From the NCBI GenBank assembly GCA_030615475.1, contig JAUWZF010000003.1:1-16187 (forward strand): a DNA stretch of 16,187 bases. The letters are read 5' to 3'. Positions 2,621-16,086 of this stretch are shown piece after piece. Source of the DNA: Dehalococcoidales bacterium (GTDB lineage: Bacteria; Chloroflexota; Dehalococcoidia; Dehalococcoidales; RBG-16-60-22). The position numbers and the translations under genes are program-made. Position 1 is the first letter of the stretch. Each line of letters begins with the position of its first letter. The notes below the pieces were generated by a model that was not told where the DNA came from, did not search any database, and worked only from the letters and a program-made list of their open reading frames with translations.

Positions 2621-3655
2621 TTACTTTCCCGCAGGACCCGCGTCAGGCCCTTTAGAGACAGCGGATCGCACGCTGGGATCAGCATAGAGGTGGCATTTGA
2701 CCCGTTGTTGCCCTATTTCCCTTACCTCCGGCACGTCTTTCGAGCATTTATCCGTGGCCTCAACACAGCGCGTGTGGAACCGGCACCCGGGGGGAGGGTT
2801 CAACGGCGAAGGCATCTCGCCGCTCAAAATTATCTTTTCTACGCCCTTGTCCTCATCCTCGGGCAGTGTCAACATAGATGCTGATATCAATGCCCTTGTG
2901 TACGGATGCAAAGGCCGCGTAAATAGCTCCTCTGCCTCTCCGAATTCCACTATCTCCCCCAGATACATTATGGCCACGGTGTGGCTCATAAAACGCACCG
3001 TTGCCAGGTTATGCGCGATAACCAGATAGCTCAAATTGTACTGGTCTTGAAGGTCTTTCAGCAGATTCATAATCTGTGCCCGAATCGATACATCCAGGGC
3101 CGACACGGGCTCATCCAGCACGATGAGGTCAGGGTTCAATGCCAGGGCACGCGCCACCGCAATCCGCTGTCGCTGCCCGCCGCTGAACTCATGCGGGTAG
3201 TAATCGACTTGATTCGGTGCGAGCCCCACCTGATCGAGTATCTCCAGCACCCTGCTCCGAATCTCCTCCTTCGTTCGTTTTGTATTCACAACCAGCGGCT
3301 CGGCGATAATATCTCTCACCCGCATCCTCGGGTTCATGGAGCTCCACGGATTCTGCTGTACCGACTGTACCCTTGGCCGATACTCCATTTTCAGTTGCGA
3401 CTTGGAAAATCGGTAGATATCCTTGCCTTCGAAGAGAATACTCCCGGAAGTCAATTTCTCCAGCAGCAGTACCGCCTTGGCCACGGTCGTCTTGCCGGCA
3501 CCCGATTCTCCTACGAGGCTCAAAGTCTTGCCCCGTTCTATCGTGAATGATATGCCGTCTACAGCCCTTACCCAACCGATAGTGCGCTGGAGAAGGCCCT
3601 TGGTAACAGGGTAGTACTTCTTAAGGTCGCGCGCTTCCAATATTACATCTGTCAT
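2621..3655 (-). CDS. dppF: Dpp/Opp-type ABC importer ATP-binding protein (DppF/OppF-like)
   Basis: This 344-residue cytoplasmic ATPase would power import together with the DppD-like partner. It shows Walker A GESGAGKTT (49-57), Q-loop QQNPWSSMNP (100-109), signature SGGQ (158-161), Walker B LIVLDEP (177-183) and switch His215 in AHN. After the ABC domain comes the oligopeptide-transporter C-terminal domain (HPYTRAL, then PPGCRF) with four cysteines, C291, C297, C304 and C321, in a CX5CX6CX16C arrangement like that of an iron-sulfur cluster site in DppD-type ATPases. It is the last gene of the operon and starts three bases after the dppD stop (TAG ACC ATG), so translation is probably coupled. 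Letters B, C, D and F are given by order and family; Opp or App naming is equally possible because the substrate is unknown. Confidence 0.93.
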   Translation of the reverse strand: MTDVILEARDLKKYYPVTKGLLQRTIGWVRAVDGISFTIERGKTLSLVGESGAGKTTVAKAVLLLEKLTSGSILFEGKDIYRFSKSQLKMEYRPRVQSVQQNPWSSMNPRMRVRDIIAEPLVVNTKRTKEEIRSRVLEILDQVGLAPNQVDYYPHEFSGGQRQRIAVARALALNPDLIVLDEPVSALDVSIRAQIMNLLKDLQDQYNLSYLVIAHNLATVRFMSHTVAIMYLGEIVEFGEAEELFTRPLHPYTRALISASMLTLPEDEDKGVEKIILSGEMPSPLNPPPGCRFHTRCVEATDKCSKDVPEVREIGQQRVKCHLYADPSVRSAVSKGPDAGPAGK

Positions 3656-3658
3656 GGT

Positions 3659-4627
3659 CTACTTCACTTTCCAACAAGATACAGAGTGCCCATCGCTTAT
3701 TTCCACTATGGGGGGCTGTTGCTTATGGCAAATCTCCTGTACGTCGGGGCAGCGAGGGGCGAACCGGCAGCCGGGAGGCAAGTCCAGCAGTGAGGGAGGC
3801 TGCCCTTCAATCGAGTAAAGCCGGTCATCCTTCCGGTCCAGGCGTGGCACAGAATGAATGAGAGCACTGGTGTAAGGGTGCTTGGGCGCTTTGAATATAG
3901 TGCTGGTCGCAGCTGTCTCCACGATTTTGCCCGCGTACATCACGGCTACCCGCTGGCATATATTGGCCACTACCCCGAAGTCATGGGTAATAAAGATGAT
4001 GGCCACATCCGTCTGCTTCTGGATATCCTTAAAGAGGGCTATGTATTGGGCCTGTATGGTGGCGTCAAGAGCGGTGGTGGGCTCATCGGCAATCAGCAAG
4101 CGTGGACGGCAGGACATCGCGATGGATCCCACTACCCGCTGCCTCATCCCGCCGCTCATCTGAAAAGGATAATCCCGGATACGCATCTCGGGCGCCGGAA
4201 TCCTCAGCAACCGCAGCGCCGAAATGACTTCATCCTCAACCTTGTCATCGCGAAGGCCCTGGTGCAGTCGCACCGATTCACCTATCTGATTGCCGACGGT
4301 ATAGACCGGGTTGAGCGAAGTCATCGGGTCCTGGAGAATCATCGATATCATCTTCCCGCGATACGCCCTCATCTCCTTCTTACTCAGCTCCATGAGGTTC
4401 GTTCCGTCCAGGATAATCTTTCCGCCAACTATCCTGCCCGCAGGCTCCGGAAGCAAGCGAAGAATCGACAGGCCGGTTACTGTCTTCCCGCAAGCGGATT
4501 CACCGACCAGGCCGAAGGTCTCTCCCTCATGCACGTAGAAGCTGATCCCGTCGACGGCCTTGAACTCGCCCGCCCGGGTGAAGAAAGAGGTGCACAGGTC
4601 CTCTACTTGAAGAAGTATTTTGCTCAT
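3659..4627 (-). CDS. dppD: Dpp/Opp-type ABC importer ATP-binding protein (DppD/OppD-like)
   Basis: This 322-residue protein is the second ATPase of the importer. Motifs are Walker A GESACGKTV (42-50), Q-loop LQDPMTSLNP (98-107), signature SGGM (158-161), Walker B LLIADEP (177-183) and switch His215 in ITHD. The C-terminal domain has HPYTSAL and then C287, C293, C300 and C318 (CX5CX6CX17C), matching the cysteine arrangement reported to hold a [4Fe-4S] cluster in some DppD proteins. The start codon overlaps the dppC stop as ATGA (4624-4627), a clear sign of translational coupling. Both ATPases of the pair look catalytically intact. Confidence 0.93.
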   Translation of the reverse strand: MSKILLQVEDLCTSFFTRAGEFKAVDGISFYVHEGETFGLVGESACGKTVTGLSILRLLPEPAGRIVGGKIILDGTNLMELSKKEMRAYRGKMISMILQDPMTSLNPVYTVGNQIGESVRLHQGLRDDKVEDEVISALRLLRIPAPEMRIRDYPFQMSGGMRQRVVGSIAMSCRPRLLIADEPTTALDATIQAQYIALFKDIQKQTDVAIIFITHDFGVVANICQRVAVMYAGKIVETAATSTIFKAPKHPYTSALIHSVPRLDRKDDRLYSIEGQPPSLLDLPPGCRFAPRCPDVQEICHKQQPPIVEISDGHSVSCWKVK

Positions 4628-5553
4628 AATTGTCTTAACCTCGGGTCCATTTTATCACGAATCCAGTCGCCAAGGAAATTACCGGACATTACCACCGCCC
4701 CGATGGCAATGCCGGGGAACGTGGAAATCCACCAGGCCCTGTCAAGGTCGTTTCTCCCGTCGGCCACCATGGAACCCCACGATGCGGTTGGCGCGGAAAT
4801 GCCGATTCCAAGGTAACTTAACATAGATTCTGCCAGAATCATCATACCCACGGCCAGCGTCATGATTACTATCAGCGAATTGAGAACGTTCGGGAAAATA
4901 TGTCTAAGCATAATTCTCGAGGTGGAAGCGCCGTTGACGCGCGCCTGCGCCACGAAGTCAGACTGGCGTATTCGAAGGGATTCTCCCCGGGTCAGGCGTG
5001 CGTAGCCGGCCCAGCCAAGTGCTGACAAAGCAATCACCACAGTCATATAACCCGGACCGATAATGGTGGCCAGCAGCAAAGCCAGAATAAGACCGGGAAA
5101 TGATAAAGCCACATCGACTACCCTCATGATAAAGCCTTCGATACGCCCTCCCAGGTAGCCCGCCGTTATCCCCAGTATCGTACCGATGGTGGCGGTAATA
5201 AATATAACCAGCAACGAGACACTGAGAGAGACCCTGGCGCCGTGAATAACACGACTCAGGACGTCCCGCCCGAGGTTATCTGTTCCAAGAAGATGTTCCG
5301 TACTACCGCCTTCTATAAAGGCGGGTGGAAGGCGCCTTTCCTTTAACACTTGATCGTTAGGGTGATAGGGTGACAGACCGACATCGGGTAAACCAATCCA
5401 GGCCAGGTCGGCAAATATCGCCGTTAAAAACATCAGGGCCAATACGGTTGCCGGGATAACCAGCGATAGACCCCTGAGAATCCGCGCTCCCCGCGAAAGG
5501 CCCGAAATCCTGGGCCTGGTCTTGTCTTCTATGTTCGGCATTATACTCAGCAT
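4624..5553 (-). CDS. dppC: Dpp/Opp-type ABC importer permease (DppC/OppC-like)
   Basis: This 309-residue inner-membrane subunit has an N-terminal helix (about 30-50), an extracytoplasmic loop carrying the family hallmark LGTDNLGRDVLSR (89-101), and a C-terminal permease core with further hydrophobic helices. The EAA loop that docks on the ATPases is at about 200-221 (VAQARVNGASTSRI...PN). Length and order of elements are normal. It starts 12 bases after the dppB stop. The ribosome binding site is weak (GGGAC), and a second ATG lies four codons inside, so the exact start is uncertain. It should pair with the DppB-like subunit to form the channel. Confidence 0.93.
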   Translation of the reverse strand: MLSIMPNIEDKTRPRISGLSRGARILRGLSLVIPATVLALMFLTAIFADLAWIGLPDVGLSPYHPNDQVLKERRLPPAFIEGGSTEHLLGTDNLGRDVLSRVIHGARVSLSVSLLVIFITATIGTILGITAGYLGGRIEGFIMRVVDVALSFPGLILALLLATIIGPGYMTVVIALSALGWAGYARLTRGESLRIRQSDFVAQARVNGASTSRIMLRHIFPNVLNSLIVIMTLAVGMMILAESMLSYLGIGISAPTASWGSMVADGRNDLDRAWWISTFPGIAIGAVVMSGNFLGDWIRDKMDPRLRQL

Positions 5554-5565
5554 ACTTAAAAGTCC

Positions 5566-6489
5566 CTATGACTTCTCGTATCTAATCTGCGGGTCGACGT
5601 AAGCGTAGGAAATGTCTACCAGCAGGTTTATCCCGAGAACCATGACTGCCGTTAATATGGTAATGGCCTGTACTACGGTGAAGTCGCGGGCAAAAGTCGC
5701 CTCGACTATCATCCTGCCCATACCGGGCCAGTTGAATATGGTCTCCGTGATTACCGCGCCGAGGACCAATCCGGGGATTATCAGGCCGAGTGTCGTCAGC
5801 GGCGTTATCAGCGCATTCCTCAGGGCATGCTTCCAGATAACAGTCTTCTCGGGAAGTCCCTTGATTCTCGCCAGCTTGACATATTCGCTTTCGAGGACGT
5901 CCAGCATGCTGGACCGGACCAGACGCATCATACCCGGCAGCGTGAAGAAAACCATGGTACCGACCGGCAGCACATAGTGAGCCGGGGTAGCCATGCCGGC
6001 GACCGGCAATATCTGCCAGTACACCGCAAAGACCAGCACGGCCATGATAGCCACCCAGAAGCCCGGCAGCGCCTGCCCCAGAATAGCCATGAACTTCACC
6101 CCCTGGTCCCAGAACGTATCGCGGCGTGTCGCCGCCAGGACCCCCAGAGCGAGTGCCAGCGTCATGCCTATGGCGAACGCGGGGAGGGTTAATTTAAGGG
6201 TATTGGGCAGCGACTCTTTTATCATATCAATTACCGGTCGCTGTTTGAGGAGCGAAGTGCCGAGGTCGCCCTGGGCCAGGTCACCCATGTAAACGATAAA
6301 TTGCTCACCGTATGACTTGTCCAGTCCCAGCCGGACCTTCATTGCTTCGTATTGTCCCTCCGTCATATTGGGATTCTTTAACAGTTCCAGGGGGTCGCCG
6401 GCGGCACGGACCAGGAAAAAGACCATTACTGCAATACCGATAATGGCTACGACTGCCTGTAACAGCCTTATTATGATGAAACGCGTCAT
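5566..6489 (-). CDS. dppB: Dpp/Opp-type ABC importer permease (DppB/OppB-like)
   Basis: This 307-residue membrane protein begins with the typical first helix (MTRFIIIRLLQAVVAII...), followed by a periplasmic-side region with GDLGTSL (74-80) and a five-helix permease core. The EAA loop is YVKLARIKG (203-211) followed by ALRNA (222-226), and ETIFNWPGMGRM (249-260) is another hallmark. It forms the translocation path with DppC. The start is supported by AAGGA nine bases before the ATG. It is separated from the binding-protein gene by 376 bases containing its own likely promoter (6639-6668) and a structured leader (6529-6582). Confidence 0.93.
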   Translation of the reverse strand: MTRFIIIRLLQAVVAIIGIAVMVFFLVRAAGDPLELLKNPNMTEGQYEAMKVRLGLDKSYGEQFIVYMGDLAQGDLGTSLLKQRPVIDMIKESLPNTLKLTLPAFAIGMTLALALGVLAATRRDTFWDQGVKFMAILGQALPGFWVAIMAVLVFAVYWQILPVAGMATPAHYVLPVGTMVFFTLPGMMRLVRSSMLDVLESEYVKLARIKGLPEKTVIWKHALRNALITPLTTLGLIIPGLVLGAVITETIFNWPGMGRMIVEATFARDFTVVQAITILTAVMVLGINLLVDISYAYVDPQIRYEKS

Positions 6490-6528
6490 CTATTATGTTC
6501 CTTAGTGGTTAGAACGACTTCGGATGGC

Positions 6529-6582
6529 CCTCATATACTCTGGCACATTGTGCTGCTTCTGGTTGTCCCAGCTTATATGAGG
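6529..6582 (-). promoter_or_regulatory. Strong stem in the dppB leader
   Basis: CCTCATATA (6529-6537) is perfectly complementary to TATATGAGG (6574-6582). After a two-by-two internal loop the pairing continues with CTGG (6540-6543) and CCAG (6568-6571). The 24-base apical part can form a further small GCAC-ATT-GTGC hairpin. No T tract follows on the minus strand, so it does not look like a terminator. It ends about 40 bases before the dppB start codon, within the predicted leader. Confidence 0.55.
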
Positions 6583-6638
6583 AACATCAACGCATCGGCT
6601 ATCTTACCATACCTTAAGGGATTTTTTAAACTTTTTCT

Positions 6639-6668
6639 ATCATACAGGCGCATTATCAAAAGTGTCAA
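6639..6668 (-). promoter_or_regulatory. Promoter of dppBCDF
   Basis: On the minus strand there is TTGACA (complement of 6663-6668), an 18-base spacer, and TATGAT (complement of 6639-6644), which differs from TATAAT at one base. Transcription would begin near 6632. This would make the four permease and ATPase genes independent of the binding-protein promoter, although read-through from upstream remains possible. Confidence 0.65.
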
Positions 6669-6784
6669 ACAATCTTGCCCTTAAGCGGGTTGCTTTTTTC
6701 TTCAGATGTAATTTTTCTTTATTAACAGCGGCAGGAGGCGCAGGTCATTACTCGGAGAAATATGGAACAATTCTTTATACGCAG

Positions 6785-6822
6785 GGTCTCCGGGGGAGGT
6801 GTATAACCCCACCCCGGAAACC
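6785..6822 (-). other. GC-rich intercistronic stem-loop after the binding-protein gene
   Basis: TCCGGGG (6789-6795) and CCCCGGA (6812-6818) are perfectly complementary; after a C-A mismatch the stem extends by three more pairs (GGT 6785-6787 with ACC 6820-6822), and CGCA (6780-6783) can pair with TGCG (6827-6830). It lies about 43 bases after the binding-protein stop codon. There is no T tract on the minus strand, so it may be an mRNA-stabilising or processing structure and not a terminator. Confidence 0.5.
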
Positions 6823-6865
6823 GCGTTGCGTATTAACTTACCTCTGGCAGTAAAATACTACCTTA

Positions 6866-8530
6866 TTACGGGTGCGTAACGTAGTTCACACAGTCATAGT
6901 AGCCGGCCAACCACGTTCTATCGGTCCATTCTCCCAGTTCCGGGCCATAGACCATCATGGTTTCTACCTCAGCGACACCGATATCTACGTACAGGGTACG
7001 TGCATGCGCACAGAACGCCGCATAATACTCCGCCGCCTTAACGGGGTCAAGCTCCGTGGTCGCCTGTTCGTAGAGGTAATCCGCCACCGGGTCGTTGGCG
7101 GTGTTGTGGGTGCCTACCGACGTGAACATGTTGGCGGCATGGTAGGTGGTGTTATAGTAACCTCCGAATGCCCAGGTGAATATCCAGCCTACATTCGGAT
7201 CGCCCGGCTGCAACCTGGCGAAGCTGAAGAAATAGCCGCCGAACACGGTTTGGTCAACAATCTCTATCTCAACCTGAAGGCCGGCCTCCTGCCAGTAGCC
7301 CATGAGCATCAGGATGTAATCCTGTCCGGCGGCGGTCGAGTAGATATGGATGGTGGGGTCTTCCCAGGCGTCCGGATACCCGGCTTCGGCAAGCAGCGCC
7401 ATGGCTTTATCAAGGTCGTATGGGTCAGCCTCCAGCGCATCGCTCCATCCGTAGCTCCCCGGATACATGAACCAGTGGCCTCCCGGCTTGGCGAAACCCT
7501 GGTACCACTCGTCGCAAATCTCCTGGCGGTTGAGGGAGTAGGACATGGCCTGGCGGACGCGGATGTCGTGCACCGGCCCGGCTTCCGGCATCCAGGTGCC
7601 CTGGATATTGAAGTTGGATACGCCGGGGAACCCGATGGACACCGTTCGATACCCCTCGTCCATCAGTTCGGTCAACCTGTCATAGTTTAGGCCGATGCAG
7701 ATATCAATCTCACCCCTCTTGAACATGGCAACCCGGGTAGCTTCTTCCGGCACCTGGAAAACCTCGAGATACTGGAACTTGGGTACTTCACCCCAGTATT
7801 CCGTGTTCGCTTCAACTTTCCAGCTTGTTTCCGGAATTTTTTCGACGAACTTCCAGGGTCCCGACCCCATCGGTTGCAGGCGGTATTCTTCCATGCCGAG
7901 TTCCTCGTAATAGTTCTTGGGCAGTATCCGCGTCCAGGCGAAAACTACAGCCTGGGCCGGCTCGGGACGGGCGCTCACAAACTGATAGGTGTAGTCATCG
8001 ACGACGATAGAGTCGGCCTTGTTGTAGGCTTCGCTGATGTACCAGGACCATGGATTCGTCGAAAGACTCATATCACCGAAGCGGTCGACGGAGAACTTGA
8101 CGTCGTGGGCTGTCAGCGGGTCGCCGTTGTGCCATTTGATGTCCTTGCGGATATTGAAAGTCCAGGTACTTCCATCAAGTGACCAGCTTTCGGCTACCCA
8201 GGGAATAATGACCCCATCGGCGTCATAGGTGAGCAGGGAGTCGTATATGCACCAGCCAATGAACGACTCGTAGTAGACCGGGTCGGTCGATTCCCAGCCG
8301 AAATCCACTTCGGCAACGCGTATCGTGCCTGTAGGAGCCGGCGGTCCCGGTTCCGGTTCCGGTGCCGGGGTCGGCTCTGGTTCCGGCGTCGGGGTTGGTT
8401 CTGGTTCCGGTGTCGGTGCCGGCGTTGGTGCTGGTGTCGGCGCTGGCGTTGGTTCTGGCTCGGCACAACTGCCAAAAACCATGCCGACTGCAAGTATGAT
8501 GATTAACGGGATTAGGAATAGTCTTTTCAT
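6866..8530 (-). CDS. Extracellular solute-binding protein, family 5 (SBP_bac_5), lipoprotein
   Basis: This 554-residue protein should capture the substrate outside the membrane and hand it to the DppBC-like permease. The N-terminus is a lipoprotein signal: MKR, a hydrophobic stretch to residue 19, then FGSC with Cys22 as the lipidated residue (the -3 position is Phe, not the usual Leu). Residues about 24-68 are a low-complexity Pro-Thr-Glu-Ala linker that would hold the domain away from the membrane. The family-5 signature follows at about 110-150 (WVAESW, WTFNIRKDIKWHNGDPLTAHDV). Family members bind peptides, nickel, sugars or other solutes, so the ligand is not predictable. The start is supported by GAGGAGGG (complement of 8535-8542). 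It heads the transporter cluster and has a promoter at 8711-8739. Confidence 0.93.
   Translation of the reverse strand: MKRLFLIPLIIILAVGMVFGSCAEPEPTPAPTPAPTPAPTPEPEPTPTPEPEPTPAPEPEPGPPAPTGTIRVAEVDFGWESTDPVYYESFIGWCIYDSLLTYDADGVIIPWVAESWSLDGSTWTFNIRKDIKWHNGDPLTAHDVKFSVDRFGDMSLSTNPWSWYISEAYNKADSIVVDDYTYQFVSARPEPAQAVVFAWTRILPKNYYEELGMEEYRLQPMGSGPWKFVEKIPETSWKVEANTEYWGEVPKFQYLEVFQVPEEATRVAMFKRGEIDICIGLNYDRLTELMDEGYRTVSIGFPGVSNFNIQGTWMPEAGPVHDIRVRQAMSYSLNRQEICDEWYQGFAKPGGHWFMYPGSYGWSDALEADPYDLDKAMALLAEAGYPDAWEDPTIHIYSTAAGQDYILMLMGYWQEAGLQVEIEIVDQTVFGGYFFSFARLQPGDPNVGWIFTWAFGGYYNTTYHAANMFTSVGTHNTANDPVADYLYEQATTELDPVKAAEYYAAFCAHARTLYVDIGVAEVETMMVYGPELGEWTDRTWLAGYYDCVNYVTHP
8333..8461. repeat. Degenerate tandem repeat encoding the Pro-rich linker
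   Basis: This stretch is built from short GGTGCCGGCGTT/GGTTCCGGTTCC-like units that encode alternating TP, AP and EP dipeptides of the binding protein (residues about 24-66). The repetition explains the spurious Gly-Ser-Val-rich reading frame on the opposite strand. Such tracts often vary in length between strains through slippage. Confidence 0.8.
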
Positions 8531-8861: not shown

Positions 8862-8894
8862 AAAAAAATAGAACTTCCACCAGGGAAGTCCTAT
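8862..8894 (-). terminator. Intrinsic terminator after tRNA-fMet
   Basis: Minus-strand ATAGGACTTCC pairs over 11 positions (one G-T pair) with GGAAGTTCTAT around a five-base loop (8868-8894), and the stem is followed by a run of seven T (complement of 8862-8868). It begins 13 bases after the encoded CCA. It would end the tRNA transcript and also any read-through from the methyltransferase operon. Confidence 0.88.
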
Positions 8895-8907: not shown

Positions 8908-8982
<75 letters not shown>

Positions 8983-8998
8983 TTGAGATGCACCTTTA

Positions 8999-9027
8999 AG
9001 TATAGACCCCGGAGAATAAAGTGTCAA
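8999..9027 (-). promoter_or_regulatory. Promoter of tRNA-fMet
   Basis: On the minus strand TTGACA (complement of 9022-9027), a 17-base spacer and TATACT (complement of 8999-9004) form a near-consensus promoter. The start of transcription is expected near 8992, some ten bases before the mature 5' end of the tRNA. The -35 box overlaps the end of the upstream gene: the TGA within TTGACA is that gene's stop codon (9024-9026). Confidence 0.8.
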
Positions 9028-9878
9028 CCCTGGGACAGCTGCTGACGCTTGCGGTAGTTCTCTATAAAGCGCCGGGCAAACCTGTCGCGACCCAGAATAA
9101 GGTCGGTCGCCAGTACCGATGGTTTTACCTTGGCGGCATCGACGATTAATGCCGTGGCGCCGGCGGCGATAACCATGGACACCCAGGCGTTATTGATTAC
9201 GGGGCGGTCCGGCATGCCGAAGGAGATGTTGCTGGCGCCCATGGTCATGTTCACCCCCAGCTCCTCCCTGATGCGGCGGATGGCCTCCAGAACGTCCTTG
9301 CCGGAATTCGCCTCGGCGCCGATGGCAAAGGCCAGGACATCGATAACCACGTCTTCGCGGGGGACACCGGCTTTCTCCGCGCTTTCGACGATTTTGTGGG
9401 CGATGGCCACACGGCGGTCGGCATTCTTGGGAATACCTTCGTCGTCCTGCACCAGGCCGACGACGGCCGCGCCGTACTCTTTAACGAGGGGCAAGATTCT
9501 CTTAAGGGAGTGTGCCTCTCCGCTGACGGAGTTGATAAGCGGCTTGCCCTTGTAGACCTTGAGAGCGGCTTCTATAGCGTCTGTGTTGGGGCTGTCGATG
9601 CAAATGGGGGCGTCTACCGCTTCCATCACCACTTTCACCGCCTTCGGCAGGGTGGCAACATCATCCACGCCGGGAGCGTTCACGTTAATATCGATAATAT
9701 CTGCCCCGGCCTCAACCTGCTCGATAGCCTCTTTGCGGACAATCTCAAGGTCGCCCGCCTTCAAGGCCTCGGCCAGCTTCTTTTTACCGGTGGGATTGAT
9801 GCGCTCGCCGATGAGTGCTGTCGGGCGGTCAATGGCGATAATAACTTCCTTCCTGGCGCTTGATACTTTGGTTTCCAT
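9024..9878 (-). CDS. Methyltetrahydrofolate methyltransferase, pterin-binding (MeTr/AcsE-like) family
   Basis: This 284-residue TIM-barrel protein should exchange a methyl group between the corrinoid protein and tetrahydrofolate. It has the family landmarks GERINPTGK (24-32), DINVNAPG (63-70), CIDSPN (93-98), INSVSGE (115-121), VVIDVLAF (177-184) and GASNISFGMP (214-223). By my recollection of AcsE, Asp95, Asn116, Asp180 and Asn217 correspond to its pterin-contacting residues, Asn217 being the one near N5 of the pterin. It lacks the extra domains of MetH and the signature of dihydropteroate synthase. It is the last gene of the methyl-transfer cassette, 17 bases after the fourth UroD-like gene, with AGGAG nine bases before the ATG. 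In this setting it probably works in the direction corrinoid to folate; the reverse is possible. Confidence 0.9.
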   Translation of the reverse strand: METKVSSARKEVIIAIDRPTALIGERINPTGKKKLAEALKAGDLEIVRKEAIEQVEAGADIIDINVNAPGVDDVATLPKAVKVVMEAVDAPICIDSPNTDAIEAALKVYKGKPLINSVSGEAHSLKRILPLVKEYGAAVVGLVQDDEGIPKNADRRVAIAHKIVESAEKAGVPREDVVIDVLAFAIGAEANSGKDVLEAIRRIREELGVNMTMGASNISFGMPDRPVINNAWVSMVIAAGATALIVDAAKVKPSVLATDLILGRDRFARRFIENYRKRQQLSQG

Positions 9879-9895
9879 TAGTCTATACTCCTAAC

Positions 9896-11236
9896 TTATT
9901 TATAGGCACCGTATTCTTTAGCGGCTTCCATCATGGCTCGCAGATTGTCCGGGTTGCCTTCGTTGATGCCGGCCGCCCCGCTCAATATATAGCCACCGCC
10001 CGGGGCGCAGACCTCAATAAGTTTGCGGCAGTATTCCTTGACATCCTCCGGAGTGCCCGTATGCATCACCGAAGCAGGCACATTACCGGCAATACAGGCA
10101 GAGTCGCCGAGAACCTCGTTAGCTCTGGCCATATCTATGTCCTCGAAACTCCATAACATCGAGCCCCTGGGCAAGTCCCTGATAATTTCAAGTCGTGCCC
10201 CGTACCTGCCCTCGGCGAAGGGAAACGGTACGATGCCCTCATTAATGATACCGAGGAGCACCTTTTTAAAGGTAGGCCAGTAGAAGGTCTCGAACTGCCT
10301 GGTGGACATGAAGGTCTCGTCGCCTTTGTGCAGCGGCATGAAGGTCACCGGGCACCCGGAGGCATTAGCCGCCGCCACGGCCGACCTGACAGCCATGGGC
10401 GTTAGTTTCTCCATAGCTTCGTGGAGTTTGTCCGGCTGGCGGTACATGTCCATGATGGCCCCCTGGGTGCCCCGGAGCATGTCAGCAATCATGTCAAAGG
10501 GGGCACCACCCATGCCGCCACCCCTGAGGTTGGGCACTCCAGCAGCAAGAATGGCCTGGCTTACTTCGCCAATGACCGCCTGCCATTTGATGGTCTCTTT
10601 ACCAGCCTCAATCATAATCTTAAAGGCAGCCTCAACGTCCGGGTTACCCAAAGCAGCGTAACTACCAATGGCTACTCCCATCATGCCCGAAAAGGGGGAC
10701 AACTTGCGGAAAGGCTCAAAGGCACCCACAGTCCGCGGTAGAAAGTACCGCCACCAGAAATCAGAGGGATTGCCCATGAAAGCATCATACTCATCCGCCT
10801 TCATGTACTCCTGTTCAACGAACTGATATATAGACGAGTTCGCGGGCAGGCCATGACCCGGCCACTTATGCAGCCTGTGGTCGGTCATCTCCAACACCTT
10901 ACCCGGAAAAACGAGGCCAGGACCGGTGAACGAATCCATATCAAATTCATCGACGAATTTAAGCCAAGCCTCCTTTAACTTGTCGTAATCATACATGACC
11001 GTCCCGAGGTTATAACCCGCGTAGTGAGCCGGGAAAAACCCCGAAGGCAGTAGCACCGGAACGCGGTCGGGCTCCTCCAGCTTGATGGCTTTAATAAATC
11101 TCGTGGCACGCTCTTTATAGAGCTTTTCGGCTTCCGCGCTGGCGAATTTAACATCGGGCGAAAGCCAGCGTTTAAACCGCTCCTCCCGTTTTTGTTGCCA
11201 GGTCAGCTCCGCCCAGTTATCCGGTCTTTGAAACAC
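9896..11236 (-). CDS. UroD-like (uroporphyrinogen decarboxylase family) methyltransferase, paralog 1
   Basis: This 446-residue protein belongs to the UroD superfamily, whose non-heme members (MtaA, MtbA, CmuA) transfer methyl groups to or from corrinoids. It lacks the HemE signature RQAGRY. An N-terminal extension of about 55 residues (LTWQQKREERFKRWL, then EPDRVPV) is shared by all four paralogs. Conserved blocks are KWPGHG (124-129), EYMKADEYD (143-151), APFD..ADMLRGT (245-257), PLHKGD (301-306), FAEG (340-343), CIAGNV (381-386) and CRKLIEVC (403-410). The HxC and third Cys that bind zinc in MtaA are replaced here. It starts with GTG after GGAGG at a rather long distance of 11 bases; an in-frame stop lies just upstream. 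It follows paralog 2 by 18 bases. Confidence 0.88.
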   Translation of the reverse strand: MFQRPDNWAELTWQQKREERFKRWLSPDVKFASAEAEKLYKERATRFIKAIKLEEPDRVPVLLPSGFFPAHYAGYNLGTVMYDYDKLKEAWLKFVDEFDMDSFTGPGLVFPGKVLEMTDHRLHKWPGHGLPANSSIYQFVEQEYMKADEYDAFMGNPSDFWWRYFLPRTVGAFEPFRKLSPFSGMMGVAIGSYAALGNPDVEAAFKIMIEAGKETIKWQAVIGEVSQAILAAGVPNLRGGGMGGAPFDMIADMLRGTQGAIMDMYRQPDKLHEAMEKLTPMAVRSAVAAANASGCPVTFMPLHKGDETFMSTRQFETFYWPTFKKVLLGIINEGIVPFPFAEGRYGARLEIIRDLPRGSMLWSFEDIDMARANEVLGDSACIAGNVPASVMHTGTPEDVKEYCRKLIEVCAPGGGYILSGAAGINEGNPDNLRAMMEAAKEYGAYK

Positions 11237-11254
11237 TGTTTACCAAGCCTCCGT

Positions 11255-12589
11255 TTATTTTTTATAGACACCGTATTCCTTGGCGGCATCCATCATGGCG
11301 TGCAGGTTTTCCATGTTCCCCTTATCGATGCTGGCGCCGCCGCCCAGAACATAACCCCCGCCGGGGGCGCAGTCCTCGATGAGCTTGCGGCAGGTTTCTG
11401 TTACCTGCTCGACAGTGCCGGTCATCATTATCGAGGTGGGCACATTGCCGACGATGCAGGAGACATTGCCCAGTATCTTTTTCGCCTCGGCCATATCGGT
11501 CTGGTCAAACCACCACATGACGCCGCTTTTAGGTGTATCTGTAATCTGCTTGAGCCGGTTGGTATATTTGCCCTCGGCGAAGGGCATCGGCACCAGCCCT
11601 TCGTCAATCATTGCCAGGAAGACGGCCCGCAGCGTAGGCCAGTAAAACTCTTCGAACTGCTTATCGGACATGAAGGTATCATCGCCCTTGTGCAGGGGCA
11701 TCATGCAGACGGGTGAAGCGGTCATCGGGAAATTCTTAATCTGCGAGGTTACCAGTTTCAGCTGGAACTCCATGGCCTCGTGCAATTTTTCAGGCTGACG
11801 GAACATGTCCATGACGATGCCGTGGGTACCCCGCAGCATATCGGCAAAGGTATCGAAGGGGGCGCCGGCCATGATGCCGCCGCCGAACAGGGAGGGGTAT
11901 CCGCGGGATAGCACGATCCTGGATATTTCCTGGTTGGCCGCCTGATGTTTATGGTATTCTCCTTCCAGGTCCATCAGCGTCTGAAACGTTTTACGAATAT
12001 CCGGATCCGCCATTACGCCCACCCACATATCCGCCCACATATAGCGGAGCGGCGGCAGCGTCCGGAACGACTCGAAGATCCCCACGGTGCGCGGCAGCAT
12101 TGTCCTGAGATGATAGTCGGTTGGGTCCGTCATATACGCATCGTATTCGTCGGCCATCATGTACTCGCCCTCGATAACCTGGTTCATCGACGCATCATCG
12201 GGCAGGCCCAGGCCGGGCAACATAGTGATTTTACTTGCCATCGCTTCGGCTATCTTCCCCGAGGGCACCAGCAGGGGCCCGTTGAAGGTATCCATGTCCC
12301 CAAAATCGTCCATGTATTTAATCCAGGCCTGCTTCGCCGCAGGGTAGTCGTACATTACCGTGCGGAAGTTTATTCCCACGTAATAGGCTGGATAATTTCC
12401 GTGCGGCAGCATCACCGGCACGCGGTCGGGCTCCTCCAGCTTGATGGCTTTGATAAATCTGGTCACCCTTTCCTTGTAGAGCTTTTCGGCCCCGGGGCTG
12501 ACGAACTTCACGTCAGGCGGCTTGAGCCAGTGTTTGAACCGCTCCTCCCGTTTTTCCTCCCAGGTCATATCTGCCCATTGCTTTTCCAT
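11255..12589 (-). CDS. UroD-like methyltransferase, paralog 2
   Basis: The frame can begin at 12595, but that ATG directly touches the GGAGG (complement of 12596-12600). The ATG at 12589 has a six-base spacing and gives MEKQWADMTWEEKREERFKHW, matching the start of paralog 3, so I use it (444 residues). Core blocks are the same as in its sisters: PDRVPV, APFD..ADMLRGT, MDMFRQPEKLHEAME, PLHKGDD, FAEGKY, CIVGNV and CRKLIEDC. It differs by having MLPGLGLP where the others have KWPGHG. A DNA block of 32 identical bases is shared with paralog 1. It probably transfers methyl from an unknown substrate to the shared corrinoid protein. A 92-base gap separates it from paralog 3. Confidence 0.87.
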   Translation of the reverse strand: MEKQWADMTWEEKREERFKHWLKPPDVKFVSPGAEKLYKERVTRFIKAIKLEEPDRVPVMLPHGNYPAYYVGINFRTVMYDYPAAKQAWIKYMDDFGDMDTFNGPLLVPSGKIAEAMASKITMLPGLGLPDDASMNQVIEGEYMMADEYDAYMTDPTDYHLRTMLPRTVGIFESFRTLPPLRYMWADMWVGVMADPDIRKTFQTLMDLEGEYHKHQAANQEISRIVLSRGYPSLFGGGIMAGAPFDTFADMLRGTHGIVMDMFRQPEKLHEAMEFQLKLVTSQIKNFPMTASPVCMMPLHKGDDTFMSDKQFEEFYWPTLRAVFLAMIDEGLVPMPFAEGKYTNRLKQITDTPKSGVMWWFDQTDMAEAKKILGNVSCIVGNVPTSIMMTGTVEQVTETCRKLIEDCAPGGGYVLGGGASIDKGNMENLHAMMDAAKEYGVYKK

Positions 12590-12595
12590 AATCAT

Positions 12596-12600
12596 CCTCC
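12596..12600 (-). promoter_or_regulatory. Ribosome binding site deciding the paralog 2 start
   Basis: GGAGG on the minus strand lies zero bases from one ATG (12593-12595) and six bases from the next in-frame ATG (12587-12589). Only the second has workable spacing, and it gives an N-terminus that aligns with paralogs 3 and 4. Confidence 0.7.
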
Positions 12601-12681
12601 GGAGTATAAATAATTCTTACTATCAGCAGGATTAGTACTATCCCAGGTGAGTGCCACGGGTCAGTTACTCGGAATGCCTGT

Positions 12682-14010
12682 TTATTTATAGACGCCGTAT
12701 TCCTTGGCAGCTTCTATTATGGCTTGCAGGTTTGCCGGGTCGCACTTATCGATGCCGGACCCCAGCGAGAGGATATAGCCGCCGCCGGGGGCGCAGACCT
12801 CGATGAGCTTACGGCAATACTCTTTAATGGCCTTGGGCGTTTGCGTATAAAGCTGTGACGCCAGCACGTTACCGGCGATGCAGGCGGAATCGCCGAGGAT
12901 TTTCTTGGCTTTGAACATATCCGTCTTCTCCATAGTCCACACGACCGAGGCCCTGGGCAGGTCCTTGATTATCTCCAGGCGGGTATTATAGCTGCCGTCG
13001 ATAACCATCATCGGCACGAGTCCCTCGTTAATCAGGCCCAGGAGAAGCTTGCGGAATGTGGGCCAGTAGAACTTCTCGAACTGCTTGACGGACATAAAAA
13101 CATCGTCGCCTTTATGCATCGGGATAAATATTATCGGGCTGAGGGAGACATTGGCCATATTCAACGCCGATTCGAGACTCTGCTGCGTTATAACCTCCAG
13201 GGCTTCGAGGAGCTTTTCCGGCTGCCGGTACATGTCCATGACAGAACCGTGGGTGCCCCTGAGCATATCGGCAACGGTGTCAAAGGGCGCCAGCGCCATA
13301 CCGCCCATCGATGGCGGGAATCCCTCTTCCAGGGAGATTTGGCTGCATTCAGCCATAATTTTCTGGAATCTGGCGTTCTCCTGGCTGGCTTTCCAGATAG
13401 CCTTGAACGATTTCTGGAAAGCCGGGTCCTGGCACATGGCCATGAGCTGCTGGGGCAGGCCCTGGTAGGAGGAAAGCGAGGGGATACTGGCGAAAGGCTC
13501 GAAGACGCCCCACGCCCGCGGTAAAAAGTACCGCAGGCCGAAGTCGAACGGGTCTTTCATGAACAGGTCATACTCGTCGGCTTGCATGTACTCTTTTTCA
13601 ATAAACTGTTGCATGGTCTGGTTTGACGGCAGGCCATGTCCCGGCCACTTGAATATCTTGTAATCAAGGATTTCATAGACTTTTCCCGAGAAGAAGCCGG
13701 GGCCATCAGCCGAGTCCACATCATAATCCTGGAGAAATTTAATCCAGGCCGGTTTTATTTTTGTATAGTCATACAGGACTTCTTCGAGGGTAAGCCCGGC
13801 ATTGTAGGCTACAATGGAGCCGGCCGGTATATGGACCGGAACACGGTCCGGTATCTCCATCTTGATGGCTTTCATCACCCGGGTGGCGCGGGCTTTGTAT
13901 TTTTTCTCGGCTTCCGGACTGCTGAACTTAACTCCGGTTGGATTCAGCCACTTCTTAAACCGCTCCTCGCGCCTTTCCTCCCAGGACATATCCGCCCATT
14001 GTTTTTCCAT
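12682..14010 (-). CDS. UroD-like methyltransferase, paralog 3
   Basis: This 442-residue protein has the shared N-terminal extension (MEKQWADMSWEERREERF) and core blocks KWPGHG (121-126), EYMQADEYD (140-148), APFD..ADMLRGT (241-253), PMHKGDD (297-303), CIAGNV (377-382) and CRKLIEVC (399-406). It is the most divergent at the presumed active site: FAEG of its sisters is VIDG (336-339), and CRKLIE is preceded by TQTPKAIKEY with no TGT motif. An extra Cys423 (DKCDP) is unique. These changes suggest a different substrate. AAGGAG five bases before the ATG supports the start. The 107-base gap before it contains a nine-base inverted repeat (14032-14110). It follows paralog 4 in the same operon direction. 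Confidence 0.88.
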   Translation of the reverse strand: MEKQWADMSWEERREERFKKWLNPTGVKFSSPEAEKKYKARATRVMKAIKMEIPDRVPVHIPAGSIVAYNAGLTLEEVLYDYTKIKPAWIKFLQDYDVDSADGPGFFSGKVYEILDYKIFKWPGHGLPSNQTMQQFIEKEYMQADEYDLFMKDPFDFGLRYFLPRAWGVFEPFASIPSLSSYQGLPQQLMAMCQDPAFQKSFKAIWKASQENARFQKIMAECSQISLEEGFPPSMGGMALAPFDTVADMLRGTHGSVMDMYRQPEKLLEALEVITQQSLESALNMANVSLSPIIFIPMHKGDDVFMSVKQFEKFYWPTFRKLLLGLINEGLVPMMVIDGSYNTRLEIIKDLPRASVVWTMEKTDMFKAKKILGDSACIAGNVLASQLYTQTPKAIKEYCRKLIEVCAPGGGYILSLGSGIDKCDPANLQAIIEAAKEYGVYK

Positions 14011-14031
14011 TTTTCTCCTTTTAGGGATAAG

Positions 14032-14110
14032 CGGCCTTTCTGTATGCCAGTCCTACACGGATGAAGGGTGGAAAGTTACAGCCAGGATACTGCCAACCAG
14101 TGAAAGGCCG
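14032..14110. repeat. Inverted repeat in the paralog 4-paralog 3 gap
   Basis: CGGCCTTTC (14032-14040) and GAAAGGCCG (14102-14110) are perfectly complementary over nine bases with 61 bases between them. Inside, CAGTCCT (14049-14055) can pair with AGG and ACTG around 14083-14092 with a two-base bulge. The element begins about seven bases after the paralog 4 stop codon and ends near the paralog 3 ribosome binding site. No T tract adjoins it. Confidence 0.45.
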
Positions 14111-14117
14111 ATGTCCT

Positions 14118-15452
14118 TTATTTATATACGCCGTATTCTTTTGCAGCGTCCATCATGGCAGTCAGATTAGCGGGGTCGCCTTCATCAACCATAGCTCCCC
14201 CGGCCAGTATGTAACCGCCGCCCTTACCGCAGACCTCGATGAGCTTGCGGCAGTGTTCCTTGACCTGCTGGGGCGTACCGGTCATTATCAGCGAAGTGGG
14301 TACATTGCCGATGATACAGGCCTTATCACCGAGGACTTCCTTGGCTCTAAAGATATCGGTCTGGTCAAAATACCAGGCCACCGCCCCCCCAGGTAATTCC
14401 CTGACAATATCCAGGCGCTGGTTATAGCTGCCCTCAGCAAAGAGCATAGGCATAATACCATCTTCAACAAGAGCCATGACAACCTTCTTCAAGCTGGGCC
14501 AGTAGAAGGTCTCGAACTGCTTTCCCGACATAAAACCGTCAGCGCCTTTATGCAGCGGCATCATTACTATAGGCGGACCGGAGTCGCTCACGGATGATTT
14601 AGCCGAAGCAATGGTCAGGGGCGTTATTCTTTCCATAGCCTCATGGAGCTTGTCCGGCCGCTGGAACATGTCCATCATTATGCCCTGGGTACCCCTGAGC
14701 GTATCGCCGAGGGTATCAAAGGGCGCCTTGGCCAGACCACCTATTATGCTGGGAAATCCCAGTTCCAGTGCCTCATTGATGACACTACCGATGGCTTCCG
14801 CCCACTTTATACTTTCTCTGCCGGCCTCCAGTAGAGCTTCAAACGCAGCCTGAACATCGGGAATGCCGAACGGTACGAAAGACATGATGGCGATTTCTTC
14901 TATAGATGTAAACGGTGGAATATTCCGGAAGGGTTCAAAGGCACCGAACACGCGCGGTAAATACGTTCTCAGCCAGAAGTTAGACGGGTCTTGGATAAGG
15001 TCATCGTATTCATCCGCCTTCATGTATTCGCCCTCAACACACTGGTAAGATAGCGTATCCGTGGACAGCCCGTGGCCGGGCCACTTGTAGAGCTTGTAAT
15101 CGACAACTTCCAGGGCTTTCCCGGAAGGAACAAAGACAGGACCCATGTAAGTATCCATATCGCCGAATTCATGGAGGAATTTACGCCATGCCTGCTTTAG
15201 TTTAGTAGAATCATACATGACCTCATGGAGCGTCATGCCGGCGTAACTGGCGGCAAACAGACTGACCGGTATATTGCACGGGACCCGGTCAGGCTTCTGT
15301 AACTGGAAAGCCCTGCCTAACCTGGTAACCCTTTCCCGGTAAGCCTTCCTGGCTTCCGGGCTGGTGAATTTTATATCAGACGCAGACATCCACGCTTTGA
15401 AGCGTTCCTCCCGTTTTTCGTCTGGGGTCAACTCCGCCCATTCTTTGGCCAT
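14118..15452 (-). CDS. UroD-like methyltransferase, paralog 4
   Basis: The frame is open to a TTG at 15467 that overlaps the corrinoid gene, but the ATG at 15452 gives MAKEWAELTPDEKREERF, which aligns with the starts of its sisters, so I use it (444 residues). That start is one base after the corrinoid stop codon (TAAaATG), so ribosomes could re-initiate; no strong Shine-Dalgarno sequence is visible. Blocks seen are KWPGHG, EYMKADEYD, APFD..GDTLRGT, PLHKGAD (His301 in this numbering), FAEGSY, CIIGNV and CRKLIEVC. HKGA instead of HKGD and GDT instead of ADM set it slightly apart. Being coupled directly to the corrinoid gene, it may be the original partner of that protein. Confidence 0.88.
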   Translation of the reverse strand: MAKEWAELTPDEKREERFKAWMSASDIKFTSPEARKAYRERVTRLGRAFQLQKPDRVPCNIPVSLFAASYAGMTLHEVMYDSTKLKQAWRKFLHEFGDMDTYMGPVFVPSGKALEVVDYKLYKWPGHGLSTDTLSYQCVEGEYMKADEYDDLIQDPSNFWLRTYLPRVFGAFEPFRNIPPFTSIEEIAIMSFVPFGIPDVQAAFEALLEAGRESIKWAEAIGSVINEALELGFPSIIGGLAKAPFDTLGDTLRGTQGIMMDMFQRPDKLHEAMERITPLTIASAKSSVSDSGPPIVMMPLHKGADGFMSGKQFETFYWPSLKKVVMALVEDGIMPMLFAEGSYNQRLDIVRELPGGAVAWYFDQTDIFRAKEVLGDKACIIGNVPTSLIMTGTPQQVKEHCRKLIEVCGKGGGYILAGGAMVDEGDPANLTAMMDAAKEYGVYK

Positions 15453-15453
15453 T

Positions 15454-16086
15454 TTACTTTGCACCAATCCACTGCTTGGCCAGAGCTACCGCCGCCATGG
15501 CGTCTTTACCGAAGGCATCGGCCTTGGCGTATTTCCTCACCTCTTCGTCCATCTGGCCGCCGCCTATCATTATTTTGATATCTTTCCTCAGGCCGGCCTT
15601 ATCCAGAGCCTCAACGGTCTCTTCCATGGCGTCAAAGGCAGGGGTCAGGAATCCGCTTAACCCCACGATCGGGGCATTGGTCTCTTTCACTTTATCCACG
15701 AATTTTTCCTTGGGAACATCGACACCCAGATTATGAACCTCGAAACCGTTGACATCCAGCATGAAGTCGACGATATTCAGGCCGATATCGTGAATGTCTC
15801 CGGCAACCGTGCCGAGGACAATTGTACCGAGGCGCTTGGTTTCCACTGCCTTGGTGAGATGCGGTTTCACCATCTCGGTTACCTGCTTGAGAAGCTCGCC
15901 GGAGAAGACGAGCTCCGGTAAAAAGTACTCGCCGTCAGCAAAACGTTTGCCCACGACTTCCATACCCTTTCGGCTGTCTTCCAGTATTTTTATCGGGTCT
16001 TCACCGGATTCAATCCTCTCTTTAGTCAGCTTGAGGACCTCGTCCTCTTTTAAATCAGCGAGCAGATTAGCAAAATCTCCGGACAT
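15454..16086 (-). CDS. Corrinoid (B12-binding) methyl carrier protein, MtbC/MttC-like
   Basis: This 210-residue cytosolic protein carries the methyl group on cobalt. Residues 1-85 are the helical cap domain (LPELVFSGELLKQ... at 56-68). The Rossmann B12 domain follows, with GDIHDIG (96-102, His99 as lower cobalt ligand), SGFLT (144-148) and IGGG (174-177), then DAFGKDA (190-196). Length and domain order match the small corrinoid proteins of methylamine and methoxy-compound demethylation. The start is supported by AAGGAGG eight bases before the ATG. It is the first gene of the cassette in the window and stands directly before four UroD-like methyltransferases and a folate methyltransferase. It needs a reductive activator to recover from oxidation; none is in the window. 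Confidence 0.94.
   Translation of the reverse strand: MSGDFANLLADLKEDEVLKLTKERIESGEDPIKILEDSRKGMEVVGKRFADGEYFLPELVFSGELLKQVTEMVKPHLTKAVETKRLGTIVLGTVAGDIHDIGLNIVDFMLDVNGFEVHNLGVDVPKEKFVDKVKETNAPIVGLSGFLTPAFDAMEETVEALDKAGLRKDIKIMIGGGQMDEEVRKYAKADAFGKDAMAAVALAKQWIGAK

Follow-up and report, generated by a model that had tools for sequence, protein, structure and literature searches.

How can one corrinoid carrier protein and one folate methyltransferase work with a whole row of substrate methyltransferases? The question is raised by a gene array of an uncultured Dehalococcoidales bacterium, found on a stretch of 16,187 nucleotides that we refer to as the window (GenBank contig JAUWZF010000003.1 of assembly GCA_030615475.1; contig C113 of a metagenome-assembled genome, or MAG, of 265 contigs that is 77.65% complete). 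A preliminary description had reported one corrinoid gene, four full-length UroD paralogs in tandem and one MeTr gene, all pointing in the same direction, and all six open reading frames (ORFs) are where they were said to be. The array is real and conserved. Judging by its sequence, its product is probably a corrinoid-dependent demethylase of three components, one of which, the substrate enzyme, has been expanded into a set of dedicated enzymes that share one carrier. The genes are listed in order of transcription; slot letters refer to orthologous groups described below.

15454..16086, minus strand: corrinoid carrier protein, 210 amino acids, first gene of the operon; PF02607 and PF02310, with DIHDIG at residue 97; closest solved structures 4jgi and 1y80.
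14118..15467, minus strand: U4, slot A, predicted UroD-fold substrate methyltransferase, 449 amino acids, called from TTG; PF01208.
12682..14010, minus strand: U3, slot B, predicted UroD-fold substrate methyltransferase, 442 amino acids; PF01208; Asp at the position of Glu345 in U4; slot B clade support 98.
11255..12595, minus strand: U2, slot D, predicted UroD-fold substrate methyltransferase, 446 amino acids; PF01208; slot D clade support 100.
9896..11236, minus strand: U1, slot G, predicted UroD-fold substrate methyltransferase, 446 amino acids; PF01208; slot G clade support 100.
9024..9878, minus strand: MeTr-type methyl-corrinoid:tetrahydrofolate methyltransferase, 284 amino acids; PF00809, and NF005719 above its cut-off; closest solved structure 4o0q.

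If U4 begins at the called TTG, its ORF shares 14 bp with that of the corrinoid protein; the ATG at 15452 (codon 6) is the likelier start, and leaves a gap of 1 bp. The remaining gaps, in the same order, are 107, 86, 18 and 17 bp. U1 to U4 are 49–56% identical to one another and match PF01208 (Pfam) with E-values of 2e-21 to 4e-28; the predicted structure of U4, the one paralog modelled, has the UroD/MtaA fold in fold searches. Uroporphyrinogen decarboxylase (HemE) was considered for these proteins and rejected, their scores being 23–32 bits against a TIGR01464 cut-off of 303. The corrinoid protein has both the cap domain and the DxHxxG motif demanded of demethylases of the Mtv, Odm, Vdm, Mto and Cdm types, and the cluster also holds the other components of such systems: a UroD-fold substrate methyltransferase (MT1; by the fold model of U4) and a MeTr-type folate methyltransferase. 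The latter scores above cut-off in NCBIfam, under the name methyltetrahydrofolate:corrinoid/Fe-S methyltransferase. When it is aligned with 2e7f, the MeTr of an acetogen, Asn217 falls opposite N199, a residue that we take to have a role in that enzyme. The closest solved relative of the window's MeTr, 4o0q, is a dihydropteroate synthase by deposition, and has been the template for modelling CdmA (PMC13222342).

In the mechanism we propose, each UroD-fold enzyme would bind a methylated substrate particular to it, most probably an O-methyl (methoxylated) compound, and present the methyl group to the Co(I) of the single shared corrinoid protein. From the resulting methyl-Co(III), MeTr would then pass the group on to tetrahydrofolate, for use in the Wood–Ljungdahl pathway. 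It is likely that the enzymes share the carrier as proteins, and plausible that their substrates are O-methyl compounds; we infer the catabolic direction and a different substrate for each slot. This scheme is supported by the three components themselves, with their canonical domains and their key motifs, by a gene for carbon monoxide dehydrogenase/acetyl-CoA synthase (CODH/ACS) in the window's own genome and, in relatives, by a major facilitator superfamily (MFS) transporter gene upstream, as in the mto operon of Methermicoccus. The window stops 101 bases upstream of the corrinoid gene. The gene upstream was scanned in four other arrays, and in three of them (G001, G003 and G008) it is an MFS transporter gene in the same direction, separated from the corrinoid gene in G003 by a short gene on the opposite strand; in the fourth (G025) it encodes an S-adenosylmethionine (SAM) methyltransferase.

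The preliminary description called for the same gene order to be sought in related genomes, and for UroD genes to be counted per corrinoid gene. Homologues of U4 (E-value 1e-20 or better) were sought in 61 genomes, 31 from the window's family and 30 from other families of the order. They occur in 20 of the 61, including 3 of the 30 from other families, each of which has one or two matches. Nine arrays, the window included, are complete on single contigs, and in each 4–7 UroD genes are flanked by one corrinoid gene and one MeTr gene: four in the window, seven in G001, six in G003 and in G015, five in G025 and in G023, and four in G008; the arrays of G005 (seven) and G009 (five) each include one frame-broken gene. 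G001 and G003 belong to the window's genus, and further close relatives are Dehalococcoidales, Dehalococcoidia or Chloroflexi MAGs. Because the same layout recurs in relatives, it is not due to chance.

Counts over whole genomes are approximate, because the genomes are MAGs. MeTr of the array type (E-value 1e-100 or better) is present as one copy each in 13 of the 31 family genomes, in one of which (G012) it lies on a 5.7-kb contig that has no UroD gene. Counting partial genes, and with a close corrinoid gene defined as one of 57% identity or more and UroD matches taken at 1e-20, UroD genes exceed close corrinoid genes 3- to 12-fold in the nine family genomes that have both (9:3 in the window's genome, 13:3 in G001, 11:2 in G003, 8:1 in G004, 18:2 in G005, 12:4 in G008, 12:1 in G009, 8:2 in G015 and 12:2 in G018). 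On a single-contig chromosome, G061, the ratio is three to one. No close corrinoid gene accompanies the UroD matches of three family genomes (six matches in G002, three in G016 and one in G012), and some UroD enzymes of the family may use other carriers. Of the modular demethylase proposed in the preliminary description, the shared carrier thus survives as the best reading, given the canonical components, the single MeTr gene and the excess of UroD genes. Beyond these arrays, 26 other loci (L062–L087), whose kinship is unstated, have a single UroD gene in 21 cases and two or three in L062, L063, L064, L071 and L076; among the 21, several are truncated at a contig end or show no corrinoid gene.

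The UroD genes of the arrays fall into seven groups, which we term slots A to G. They were resolved by synteny together with a UroD tree (110 proteins, with fragments below 360 amino acids excluded; a quick method, with support from the Shimodaira–Hasegawa-like approximate likelihood ratio test and no bootstrap), in which the clades have supports of 97–100 (slot B minus one long-branch row). Seventy-one proteins were assigned to slots. The window carries A-B-D-G and a congener all seven; slot contents seen are ABDG, ABDE, ABDEF, ABCDEG and ABCDEFG. Genes left unassigned (three in G015, several in G005, and those that are broken or partial) were kept out of the count, in which the order A-B-C-D-E-F-G is kept in 111 of 111 slot pairs from 17 arrays or pieces of arrays, pairs that share descent and so are not independent. 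If a subclade of three genes that is sister to D is counted as D, the order is kept in 118 of 119. The slots are about 50% identical to one another and stay distinct across genera. dN/dS for same-genus pairs (Nei–Gojobori) is 0.10–0.22 in six slots, indicating purifying selection; slot F has no such pairs. Because the slots are old, ordered orthologous groups, under purifying selection where tested, the paralogs look dedicated rather than redundant, and the earlier suggestion of ‘interchangeable’ subunits has to be refined, although some slots have seemingly been replaced in place (see below).

Residues likely to form the active site are conserved throughout. In U4 numbering, all 71 slot proteins have His306, Lys307, Glu/Asp345 and Arg351, and 70 of them, the exception having an X, also have Cys384; among the 39 other rows of the alignment, Glu/Asp and Arg are kept in every one, His in 38, Cys in 35 and Lys in 34. 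Position 345 is Asp in all 11 slot B rows, and Glu in all 60 rows of the other slots. The positions that approximately match the His-x-Cys and distal Cys zinc ligands of MtaA hold Phe or Val, Glu or Asp, and mostly Gly, Ala or Ser, respectively; this mapping depends on model boundaries and on ligand positions that we take to be those of MtaA, and, like the zinc-motif spacing that we presume for OdmB, it serves as a lead. According to Kountz and Balskus, S-methyltransferases have a His-Cys-Cys zinc site, in which O-methyltransferases swap one or both Cys for carboxylates or non-ligands (PMC10418091). The residues of the array fit the O-methyltransferase pattern, and may bind zinc. Where the slots differ most is at residues 181–245, which follow the second barrel strand of the U4 model and precede the third (strands counted by eye): identity among 68 full-length rows is 30% between slots against 58% within them, a ratio of 0.52, compared with 0.69–0.82 in other segments. 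In CdmB, extensions between the first three strands make the dimer contact and the substrate channels (PMC13222342).

Other explanations of the array can be weighed against these data. The paralogs might be haloalkane dehalogenase/methyltransferases like CdmB, acting on chloromethane and its relatives through one shared carrier. CdmB, a haloalkane enzyme, is their only close solved homologue (E-value 3e-41, or 2e-62 with a profile; compared by sequence only), and Dehalococcoidia are linked to organohalides. However, where every slot protein has His306, Glu/Asp345 and Arg351, CdmB has Trp, Gln and Leu, though it shares the Cys, and it is metal-free with an aromatic cavity (PMC13222342); we consider this explanation unlikely. 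A role in S- or Se-methyl metabolism, like that of methanogen MtaA/MtbA or of the enzymes of type 1 mlp gene clusters (MGCs), would account for weak NCBIfam matches to MtaA/MtbA models, and the layout of several enzymes to one carrier is known there (PMC10418091). We give it very little credence: the coenzyme M methyltransferase, MtaA/CmuA and MtaA models score 37–69 bits against cut-offs of 235–400, and the MtbA model 23–41 bits against 600; the presumed ligand positions, on the approximate mapping above, lack the His-x-Cys and distal Cys; and MGCs by definition have no tetrahydrofolate methylase within 20 kb, whereas here the MeTr gene lies at 9024–9878.

Two further explanations accept the chemistry and dispute the division of labour. 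The paralogs might together form one hetero-oligomeric methyltransferase instead of acting as enzymes in their own right. In favour are the purifying selection in the six slots tested and the fixed gene order, which is frequent among genes for complexes. CdmB is a homodimer (PMC13222342), which also lends the idea some plausibility. A fixed complex could hardly tolerate the variation in slot content, however, and putative catalytic residues are kept in every slot; we regard this explanation as quite improbable. That the array merely supplies gene dosage, with one substrate for all paralogs, agrees with their common family, putative catalytic residues and operon; it is very improbable given that the slots are separate clades, distinct across genera and with residues fixed by slot, such as Asp345 in slot B alone.

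Like the kinship to a haloalkane enzyme, several further observations weigh against a demethylase with many dedicated enzymes on one carrier. The reductive activase RACo, whose gene is found in 52 of the 61 genomes searched, was not found in the window's own, incomplete genome, nor in the operon, and no activase-type gene was seen in the family's arrays (20 loci scanned). In two genomes of other families, G035 and G036, a single UroD match goes with a single close corrinoid gene. A single-contig chromosome (G062, CP070645; L064 8698–13619) has two UroD genes, a fragment, and a MeTr gene; the RACo gene next to them is shortened, and the chromosome gave no corrinoid match at 1e-15. The cluster is either decayed or a counter-example, perhaps with a different carrier. 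Finally, genes of the long PF06050 form (benzoyl-CoA-reductase type), whose products might use demethylated aromatics, were not seen in the window's genus, whose four genomes have a short form or fragment only. PF06050 occurs in 29 of the 31 family genomes and, by inspection, does not track the presence of arrays; aromatic ring reduction was accordingly dropped as a link to the array.

How the slots came to differ between relatives can be approached through synonymous divergence. Between the window and G001, dS is 0.38 for MeTr, 0.47 for slot B and 0.49 for the corrinoid gene, and 0.72 for slot G, 0.84 for D and 1.85 for A (values above 1 being near saturation); between G001 and G003 it is 0.125 for slot G and 0.83–0.84 for A and D. 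Because dS differs among genes of one operon, in-place exchange of substrate genes is suggested. The clade of the genus, a group named from taxonomy, is supported at 98 by the corrinoid tree, 80 by MeTr and 46 by slot B; it is rejected by the slot D tree (approximately unbiased, AU, test, p 0.032), and not by those of slots A (p 0.47) and G (p 0.31), so topology alone backs replacement of slot D only. We tentatively suggest, as a possibility short of an even chance, that the array behaves as a plug-in library, in which carrier and acceptor are stable, while at each fixed address a substrate enzyme can be lost, gained or, through homologous exchange with another lineage, replaced in place. If so, the one carrier would serve as many as seven demethylase specificities, of which each species would hold a subset of its own, in order.

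Downstream, the array appears to be bounded by two elements:

8908..8982, minus strand: tRNA-Met(CAT), directly downstream of MeTr, between the MeTr and ABC transporter genes.
8868..8894, minus strand: terminator-like hairpin downstream of the tRNA, a consensus match only.

The hairpin is weak evidence, since the terminator scan of the region gave 17 such sites where 8.2 were expected from shuffles. The tRNA is the sole match in the window at Rfam gathering scores, and no riboswitch was found there. Beyond lie a peptide/nickel-type ATP-binding cassette (ABC) transporter (2621–8530), a DUF169 protein and a flavodoxin. The transporter was considered as a co-transcribed part of the system, and dropped. 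Because the tRNA and stem intervene, and because its binding-protein and permease genes have no match at the 20 array loci scanned (a partial absence, as L029, L034, L039 and L045 end less than 300 bases from MeTr), it is probably an unrelated neighbour.

The DUF169 (domain of unknown function) protein has relatives in similar company. In G001 and G008 the only RACo gene found is followed by a homologue of 62–63% identity, and in G003 a homologue (58%) follows MeTr; the protein may assist in methyl transfer by corrinoids. Where family genomes with arrays have a RACo gene, it is at most one, on a contig separate from the array. DUF169 genes lie at:

1295–2053 in the window
5194–5949 in L094
4369–5124 in L095
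13750–14538 in L030

At two of the other loci, L062 (7369–8142) and L063 (7435–8142), the corrinoid and RACo genes enclose a gene for a protein of 235–257 amino acids. The protein has no Pfam match in L062; in L063 it matches a methionine-synthase activation domain weakly, with a score below cut-off. Elsewhere in the window's own genome (contig C184, L102) are two MttB-family genes with corrinoid genes of their own, 36–41% identical to the window's, which form a separate methylamine-type system.

If our interpretation is right, an anaerobe can arrange demethylation around one B12 carrier and one folate acceptor that serve many substrate enzymes, in up to seven fixed positions. Some described anaerobes offer a contrast in having many carrier genes, such as Desulfitobacterium hafniense with twenty odmA-type corrinoid genes (PMC3306737). 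The array is also a test bed for how UroD-fold methyltransferases select their substrates and recognise a carrier, and suggests a likely one-carbon diet for uncultured sediment Dehalococcoidales, kin of Dehalococcoides.

How unusual is it? The preliminary description drew a contrast with known systems, said usually to have one substrate enzyme per carrier, which was overstated, for published systems have two or three. The Mto system of Methermicoccus shengliensis, for which O-demethylation has been demonstrated, resembles the array in being a single operon with one corrinoid protein (MtoC), a pterin methyltransferase (MtoA) and an MFS transporter; its UroD-type MT1 enzymes, kin of MtvB, number two (MtoB1 and MtoB2, 47–48 kDa) rather than 4–7, and it differs in being archaeal, in including an activase (MtoD) and in transferring methyl groups to tetrahydromethanopterin (PMC8630106). 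CdmBCA of Acetobacterium dehalogenans likewise combines a UroD-fold MT1, the closest one solved, with a corrinoid protein and a tetrahydrofolate methyltransferase, but has one MT1, without the conserved His/Glu/Arg, and acts on a haloalkane, chloromethane (PMC13222342). Mtg of Bathyarchaeia has two MT1 enzymes for one corrinoid protein and one acceptor methyltransferase (MT2), but is archaeal, and MtgB, of about 300 amino acids, is said to have no homology to known MT1 (PMC10989822). Type 1 mlp gene clusters have two to three UroD-superfamily paralogs of separate lineages with one corrinoid protein, and a proposed methyl-Se/S role; they differ in the absence of a folate methyltransferase, the presence of Ram, the His-Cys-Cys zinc site and unconserved synteny (PMC10418091). 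Because these relatives already have two (Mto and Mtg) or two to three (type 1 MGCs) substrate enzymes, the array is an expanded version and not a new kind. No such array of Dehalococcoidales is named in the titles and abstracts of the literature searched, a scope outside which subscription papers fall. The logic of one carrier and several enzymes is thus known; as far as our literature search shows, what is new is its extension to 4–7 enzymes in fixed slots.

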